Shown: piece after piece, positions 31,493 through 32,059 of the stretch | How the letters are laid out: each line of letters starts with the position of its first letter | How positions within the stretch are numbered: the first letter of the stretch is position 1 | Source of the DNA: Haloterrigena turkmenica DSM 5511 | Lineage (GTDB): Archaea; Halobacteriota; Halobacteria; Halobacteriales; Natrialbaceae | Assembly (NCBI RefSeq): GCF_000025325.1 | Contig: NC_013743.1 | Span: 2,108,001 to 2,172,000, forward strand | DNA length: 64,000 bases | Reading direction: 5' to 3' | The notes under the pieces: generated by a model | Seen by the model: the letters and a program-made list of their open reading frames with translations, nothing else | Told to the model about the DNA's origin: nothing | Database searches by the model: none | Made by a program: the position numbers and the translations under genes

Positions 31493-32059
31493 ATGGAGTT
31501 CACCGTCGTACGGGGCGACATCGCCGCACAGTCCGCCGACGCGCTCGTCAACGCCGCCGGCACGTCGCTGCGGATGGGCAGCGGCGTCGCGGGAGCGCTC
31601 CGGCGAGCCGCGAACGGTCCGATCAACGACGAGGCGATGGAGCAGGGGCCGGTCGACCTCGGCGGGATCGCCGTCACCGACGCCTACGATCTCGACGCCG
31701 AGCACGTCATCCACGCGGCGGCGATGCCCCACTACGGGGTTCACGAGACTCCATCGGAGTCTCGTGAGCTAACCAGAACCGGAGGTTCTGGTGCTGACGG
31801 CCGCGCGACCGAGGAGAGCATCCGCGAGGCGACCCGGAACGCGCTCGAGCGGGCCGACGAACTCGGCTGCGAGTCGATCGTGATCCCCGTGCTCGGCACC
31901 GGCGCCGCCGGTTTCGAGTTCCGATCGGGCGCCCGGTTCGTCTGCGAAGCGGTCCGGGACTACGAGCCGTCGTCGCTGACCGACGCCCGTGTGATCGCCT
32001 ACGACGGTCGCGAGTACGACGAACTCGAGTCGGTCGCCGAGTCGGTGCGGTCGTCGTGA
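31493..32059 (+). CDS. macro-domain protein with in-frame palindromic insertion
   Basis: This 188-residue protein is a macro domain, which binds ADP-ribose and in several members removes ADP-ribose from proteins or nucleic acids. The ligand-loop motifs are VVRGDIAAQSADALVNAAG (about 5-23), SGVAGALRRAA (about 29-40) and the loop VPVLGTG-like IVIPVLGTGAAGF (about 134-146). At residues 83-101 a stretch (VHETPSESRELTRTGGSGA) interrupts the normal run from PHYG into DGRATEES. It is encoded by two back-to-back DNA palindromes. The stretch lies between strands, so the fold may survive. The upstream region is shared with the divergent MFS gene. Confidence 0.88.
   Translation: MEFTVVRGDIAAQSADALVNAAGTSLRMGSGVAGALRRAANGPINDEAMEQGPVDLGGIAVTDAYDLDAEHVIHAAAMPHYGVHETPSESRELTRTGGSGADGRATEESIREATRNALERADELGCESIVIPVLGTGAAGFEFRSGARFVCEAVRDYEPSSLTDARVIAYDGREYDELESVAESVRSS
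31741..31792. repeat. tandem pair of DNA palindromes inside the macro gene
   Basis: The first palindrome pairs TCACGAGACTCC (31741-31752) with GGAGTCTCGTGA (31756-31767) around a 3-nt loop. The second pairs ACCAGAACC (31772-31780) with GGTTCTGGT (31784-31792) around a 3-nt loop. Both arms are perfect. The pair lies in an insertion of about 57 nt, in frame with the macro gene. Such double hairpins resemble the ends of IS200/IS605-type or palindrome-associated elements in haloarchaea. Confidence 0.85.

Follow-up and report, generated by a model that had tools for sequence, protein, structure and literature searches.

A macro-domain gene in this haloarchaeal genome contains two short palindromes which lie back to back and are translated as part of the protein. 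The question raised by the locus is whether this segment is an old part of the macro protein, a piece of a known transposon, or a mobile sequence of its own kind that resides in a working gene. The third answer is favoured here. With a probability of about 0.82, the segment belongs to a non-autonomous haloarchaeal miniature element that is dispersed in many copies and consists of two abutting hairpins, running from GTT to GAC and measuring 51-60 nt.

The insertion in the macro-domain gene

The features of the locus are listed in Table 1, with positions counted in the window, i.e., the whole 64-kb stretch of DNA that was analysed.

Table 1. Positions of the macro-domain gene, the double-hairpin element and its junctions in the window
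Feature	Position	Strand	Description
Macro-domain gene, host of the insert	31493..32059	+	188 aa; Pfam Macro PF01661, E=1.1e-24
Possible recombination tract	31694..31831	+	Host DNA closer to L012 from the other macro clade than to L005, the sister gene
Left junction GGG	31736..31738	+	GAC in 10 of 12 host genes compared
Double-hairpin element	31739..31795	+	57 nt, in frame; encodes VHETPSESRELTRTGGSGA, residues 83-101
Hairpin 1	31739..31769	+	GTTCACGAGACTCC-ATC-GGAGTCTCGTGAGC
Linker TA	31770..31771	+	YA in relatives
Hairpin 2	31772..31792	+	ACCAGAACC-GGA-GGTTCTGGT
Right end of element, GCT	31793..31795	+	GAC in most relatives
Right junction GAC	31796..31798	+	First host codon past the insert

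Re-measurement of the arms confirmed the two perfect, adjoining hairpins with triloops and stems of 12 and 9 bp that had been described by the sequence-only reading. The arms of hairpin 1 (31741-31752 and 31756-31767) are 12 nt each and 100% complementary across a gap of 3 nt, and they can be extended to 14 pairs (31739-31752 with 31756-31769) if one T.G pair is included. Those of hairpin 2 (31772-31780 and 31784-31792) are 9 nt each and pair perfectly, likewise across 3 nt. Hairpin 1 is the sole hairpin of the window with a stem of at least 12 bp and a loop of 3-5 nt, where 0.05 are expected per window from Markov-1 simulations. Adjacent hairpins of at least 9 bp occur in the window only as this pair, and 0 such pairs were seen in 40 simulations.

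The open reading frame continues through the element, and the inserted peptide is polar, in frame and stop-free in all macro carriers. Macro homologues were found by protein search in 116 of 125 family genomes. Among 30 aligned homologues, five have 57 extra nt between codons 82 and 83 and 25 are empty, including the closest relative of the window gene, from the same genus (G023). The empty allele reads CACTACGGG directly followed by GACGGC, and the filled allele reads CACTACGGG, the 57 nt and then GACGGC. Macro homologues with solved structures in the PDB, which are bacterial, are also devoid of the insert, with only about two residues at this position in the macro domain of TTHA0132. An AlphaFold model of the macro protein from a two-sequence input was too poor for use (mean pLDDT 54.5).

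The 57-nt segment is a clean in-frame insertion in the macro gene. The addition of 19 codons to an unbroken ORF and the lack of these residues in haloarchaeal relatives had both been proposed; both were borne out, the latter by the alignment. The proposed span of 31739-31795 is exactly the inserted segment and exactly the match of a covariance model in the window (57.8 bits, E=2e-13).

Relatives of the element in haloarchaeal genomes

Exact searches located the 57-mer at the macro site only, and the exact pattern of hairpin 1 recovered macro copies only among 392 genomes of the order. An element confined to a single site, as suggested by the exact-pattern search, was overturned by relatives found with covariance models. 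The first model, built from the five macro inserts, gave about 130 matches in 68 of the 125 family genomes. It also revealed that the macro copy is not alone in this genome: another element lies in a HalOD1-domain gene adjoining a recombinase gene which we take from its sequence to be radA. With a second model, the count for this genome at E<0.002 rose to about 13, and the window contains only one of these copies. The many copies that would speak for a mobile element were found in part: many relatives occur at unrelated sites, but they share the architecture and part of the sequence, and the exact 57-mer stays with the macro gene.

The relatives measure 51-60 nt and follow one plan, GTTC-stem-loop-stem-GAGC, YA, A[TC]CAGA-stem-loop-stem-TCTG[AG]T, and a terminal GAC or a variant of it. 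The stems covary strongly, with a covariation score of 0.465 vs 0.149 after shuffling. Of the cells, 92.9% were paired vs about 39% when slid by one, and two-sided changes were seen at all 12 pairs of helix 1 in the broader set. Relatives are present at many unrelated sites with both stems covarying, and those in intact genes are divisible by three and read as polar peptide.

A pattern scan of GTDB genomes placed nearly all listed matches in Halobacteria, Halorubrum foremost. Non-haloarchaeal matches (Pseudomonas, Bacteroidales and Robinsoniella) scored 19-26 bits without hairpin 1 and were used as a yardstick for chance. Two pattern matches in viral contigs scored poorly when the full model was applied, at 22 and 10 bits, and had no proper hairpin 1; no link to viruses was found in the viral contigs scanned.

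Two further features were observed. In Halorubrum (loci L162-L241), copies of 55 nt are numerous and always bordered by the same flanks (AGGC..GACGTAAG); they are apparently intergenic and inside a longer repeat. A region of this genome near C1:461700 (L042, ~1350-1750) is dense in short triloop hairpins of varied stems, which are unlike the double-hairpin unit.

Host genes with filled and empty alleles

At four loci, members of one genus differ in whether the element is present. In ArgG, 54 nt are present in three genomes from three genera (G030, G049 and G104), and all other parsed family loci are empty, including that of a 99%-identical congener (G048). Within the genus of the window, an a/b hydrolase carries 51 nt in G000 and G025 and is empty in congeners G026 and G027, and LeuRS carries 60 nt in G000 and is empty in congener G025. 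The LeuRS and hydrolase copies score 32-39 bits, little above the chance yardstick, and their membership is based mainly on the filled and empty alleles. The copy in methylaspartate ammonia-lyase matches an exact 18-aa gap in comparison with solved structures, and gaps at the insert were also found against PDB homologues of the 2'-5' RNA ligase (ThpR), acyl-CoA dehydrogenase and TrpRS. These seven genes and the macro gene have independent evidence of insertion. In-frame position is given by context alone for the HalOD1 gene, two Halorarius genes, presumably a P-type ATPase and an aspartoacylase-like gene by our own reading of their sequence, and a Halomarina Rieske gene, where the copy lies between RD and GEIVCPKHG.

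Copies of 56 nt in this genome break the frame. One of them (L318:1501-1556; C1:1705729-1705784) splits the HGGG motif of an esterase/lipase between FFHG and GGF and shifts the frame, and this gene is probably inactivated. Two DDE-transposase genes (L314 and L319; C3:113989-114044 and C4:80568-80623) are likewise frameshifted by 56-nt copies. As frameshifting copies exist and intact genes are those that are recognised, the bias towards in-frame copies is partly one of ascertainment. The proposal that a miniature mobile element can reside inside a coding gene gains support from the unrelated in-frame sites and from the filled and empty alleles within one genus.

Some loci stand apart. A trpB-like ORF with a 60-nt double hairpin (L064:1-1611, G011) was dropped as an in-frame insert since the ORF ends 17 codons after the element, and it is possibly a truncated gene. 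The LeuRS copy (C1:1253560-1253619; L331 vs L334) lies in the 3' arm of an older 7-bp hairpin (GAGGTGC CAC GC/ACCTC, with the slash at the point of entry), and the loop around this insert differs in length among the congeners (L331 vs L334).

Relation to IS200/IS605 elements

The hairpins had also been likened to the ends of IS200/IS605-type elements, and the segment might then be what is left of an IS200/IS605-IS1341 transposon, or a version of it reduced to the palindromes of its ends (PATE). Similar double hairpins are indeed found in tnpB, where tnpA and tnpB meet, and close to the right ends of IS605 elements, three loci (L069, L080 and L128) carry the unit followed by GTCTTCAGGCGCAGGAGGATGTCAA, and PATEs with near-terminal palindromes are known from Haloquadratum (PMC3119063). 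However, the subterminal palindrome of the intact tnpA-tnpB elements in the family is ACCTCCGTCTTTAGGCGGAGGTCAAG, which differs from the double hairpin. The latter is internal to these elements, with many copies in tnpA and tnpB, and runs antisense across the tnpA stop, while in-gene copies are bounded by GTT..GAC and have no IS right-end tail. Descent from such an end is unlikely, and the comparison with IS ends was given up. An IS605 end or a tnpB guide-RNA terminus was dropped as an identification of the unit, given its internal, antisense position in tnpA-tnpB and the cellular genes that carry it without the right-end tail.

The antisense double hairpin covers the tnpA stop and the tnpB start at L286:1847-1905, L297:1847-1905 and L291:1447-1505, and in the IS605-type elements it encodes the last TnpA residues (QRQQNS). 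Five genomes (L063, L066, L068, L094 and L103, 1501-1559) share the position of an apparent in-frame insert in the N-terminal part of IS1341-type tnpB. A search for Y1 TnpA (PF01797) gave matches in 14 of 20 other genomes, none in congeners G024, G025 and G026, and in this genome a single fragment that is interrupted by a stop. No transposase is tied to the element by these matches, which counts against its mobility.

History of the macro copy

The segment could also be a loop by which the macro protein was extended long ago, and which was then passed on vertically with many losses or copied between homologues by recombination, with the hairpins being incidental. The same site is filled in five carriers, the region is variable in length among macro domains (cf. 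TTHA0132), and in this genome the insert is bordered by what resembles a recombination tract. Yet a near-identical architecture recurs at unrelated sites in more than 10 other genes, the silent sites of the stems are conserved far beyond the gene, and congeners differ in the presence of the element at other genes. The old loop is largely refuted by relatives at unrelated loci with empty orthologues, and we consider it improbable. Against mobility, an ancient copy that was lost several times, or recombination, could account for the filling of one site in several genera.

The carriers are scattered over the macro gene tree, where five label changes are needed and five are forced by well-supported branches. 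The window gene falls into one macro clade and the other four carriers into the other clade. Informative sites are split 4 vs 11 between L005-like and L012-like inside the tract of Table 1, and 62 vs 23 outside. Because the Fisher test (p=0.0009) applies to an interval picked after inspection and the scan-corrected permutation gave p=0.06, arrival of the macro copy by short-tract recombination with an insert-bearing homologue, not by fresh transposition, is rated as likely, not proven.

Among the macro copies, 1 of 15 silent positions is variable in the stems vs 88 of 133 in the flanking parts of these genes, and variable columns make up 3 of 46 in the stems vs 8 of 11 in the unpaired parts (p=1.4e-5). 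Since the silent sites of the stems hardly vary, either the nucleic-acid structure and not the peptide would have been kept in these copies, or the copies are recent.

Conserved stems would also be expected of a functional RNA or DNA element selected in place, e.g., a scaffold resembling the TnpB guide RNA or a regulatory structure of the mRNA. The silent sites of the stems are conserved, and many IS1341-type tnpB genes have this fold at their 3' end, the region that encodes guide RNAs. But no Rfam family was matched, the sole weak match being HgcC on L049 far below the cut-off, and the host genes are functionally unrelated, with patchy presence even among close species, which makes such a function very improbable. 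Selection of the inserted peptide itself, e.g., for salt adaptation or as an interaction loop, is hardly credible: the peptide is polar and its frame is kept in all carriers, but the unpaired columns of the macro copies vary freely whereas the stem columns including silent sites do not, pairing is preserved from gene to gene although the peptide changes, and the 56-nt copies break genes. An archaeal BHB-type intron is disfavoured by the constant length and frame of the insert and by its freedom from stops in all carriers.

Insertion site and proposed movement

The element lies directly after GAC in 10 of 12 in-frame host genes (p about 5e-11 vs local GAC codon use). Neither the macro site nor the LeuRS site shows a duplicated target; because the left flanks of both are not GAC, the terminal GAC is assigned to the element and not to a target repeat. 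The same geometry, with entry 3' of a short target, is established for the single-strand Y1 transposition of IS608 and ISDra2. We infer that the element moves as single-stranded DNA hairpins and would enter 3' of GAC while ending in GAC itself, in the manner of Y1/HUH transposition, which duplicates no target. Entry after GAC together with the terminal GAC would point to mobilisation in trans. Copies that come to lie in frame between codons in surface loops would be tolerated and persist, because the sense frame is stop-free and encodes a hydrophilic loop, and out-of-frame copies would kill the gene. The reading as a mobile element is supported by the comparison of sequences.

Otherwise equal hairpins carry their loops in both orientations, with 24 reverse-complement pairs vs 3 reverse-only and 5 complement-only. 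The null obtained by column shuffling was badly matched (observed 24, null mean 30), and the contrast between loop pairs is taken as an observation only. Reverse-complement loops were seen at orthologous sites in ArgG (GGAC/GTCC; L113, L120 and L129), the hydrolase (ATCC/GGAT; L339 and L340) and the macro gene (GTC/GAC; L043 and L045). Loop inversion would fit hairpin processing or template switching, and selection for stable GNA loops on either strand is also possible. A wider proposal, put forward tentatively, is that translatable selfish hairpins might occur throughout Halobacteria, move without a known (Y1) transposase, target GAC codons and thereby come to lie mostly between codons, flip their loops during DNA hairpin processing and steadily add loops of about 18 residues to essential enzymes.

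Comparison with known palindromic elements

Rickettsia palindromic elements are short palindromes that lie in frame in many unrelated protein genes and add peptides to them, with no transposase identified (PMC10969869, PMC3733652). The haloarchaeal element is also inserted in frame in unrelated protein genes, a likeness in description. Rickettsia palindromic elements differ from it in being bacterial and about 150 bp in first reports, whereas the haloarchaeal element has 51-60 nt, two hairpins and a position after GAC.

REPINs, or REP doublets, are similar in having two hairpins within tens of nt, in being dispersed and in being thought to be moved in trans by the Y1 transposase RAYT (TnpA-REP) (PMC3116915). 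REPs have a GTAG head and are mainly extragenic, in contrast to the haloarchaeal ends of GTT..GAC and the many intragenic copies. The inverted REP hairpins with GTAG heads were not found in the haloarchaeal unit, whose heads are GTT/GTC and whose hairpins are only loosely similar when inverted. In Archaea, only the IS200-type TnpA and no RAYT class have been reported (PMC6006769).

CGTC-tagged REPs are without a dedicated transposase, include intragenic copies and have been reported from five bacterial phyla only (PMC3733652). On its other strand, haloarchaeal hairpin 2 starts with GTC, or CGTC with the flanking base, followed by AT. However, CGTC-tagged REPs have loops of 4-5 nt and a CCA tail, in contrast to a TGG tail and loops that are mostly of 3 nt in the haloarchaeal unit. 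Hairpin 1 also departs from the CGTC pattern, and the macro copy ends in GCT, not GAC. An unpaired CGTC with a CCA tail was not found, as CGTC is reached only via the borrowed flanking base and the tail is TGG.

PATEs and SMRs of Haloquadratum are haloarchaeal palindromic elements which have no transposase and cause no target duplication, and SMRs, of which the mobiliser is unknown, often lie inside IS605-type elements and PATEs (PMC3119063). SMRs measure about 80-110 bp and have terminal inverted repeats, unlike the element of 51-60 nt, and PATEs differ by near-terminal palindromes with 20-50 bp beyond them. Neither was found reported as an in-frame coding insert in that source (PMC3119063). 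No report of an archaeal in-frame palindromic family was found in the literature searched, of partial coverage, which is weak evidence of novelty. By analogy, the element would best be filed as an archaeal counterpart of the Rickettsia palindromic elements and REPINs, formally a member of neither.

Significance for haloarchaeal genomes and proteins

Judged from these comparisons, the element appears to be a small selfish sequence by which working proteins are lengthened by about 18 residues. In-frame selfish palindromes are best known from Rickettsia, where their movement and their effects on proteins are hard to learn. With sister species that either have or lack the insert, and with hosts as well understood as ArgG, LeuRS, TrpRS and methylaspartate ammonia-lyase, both become testable in haloarchaea, which are culturable and often manipulable. 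Annotation is affected as well, since conserved genes can harbour a mobile insert, and the element may be an added source of new surface loops in proteins.
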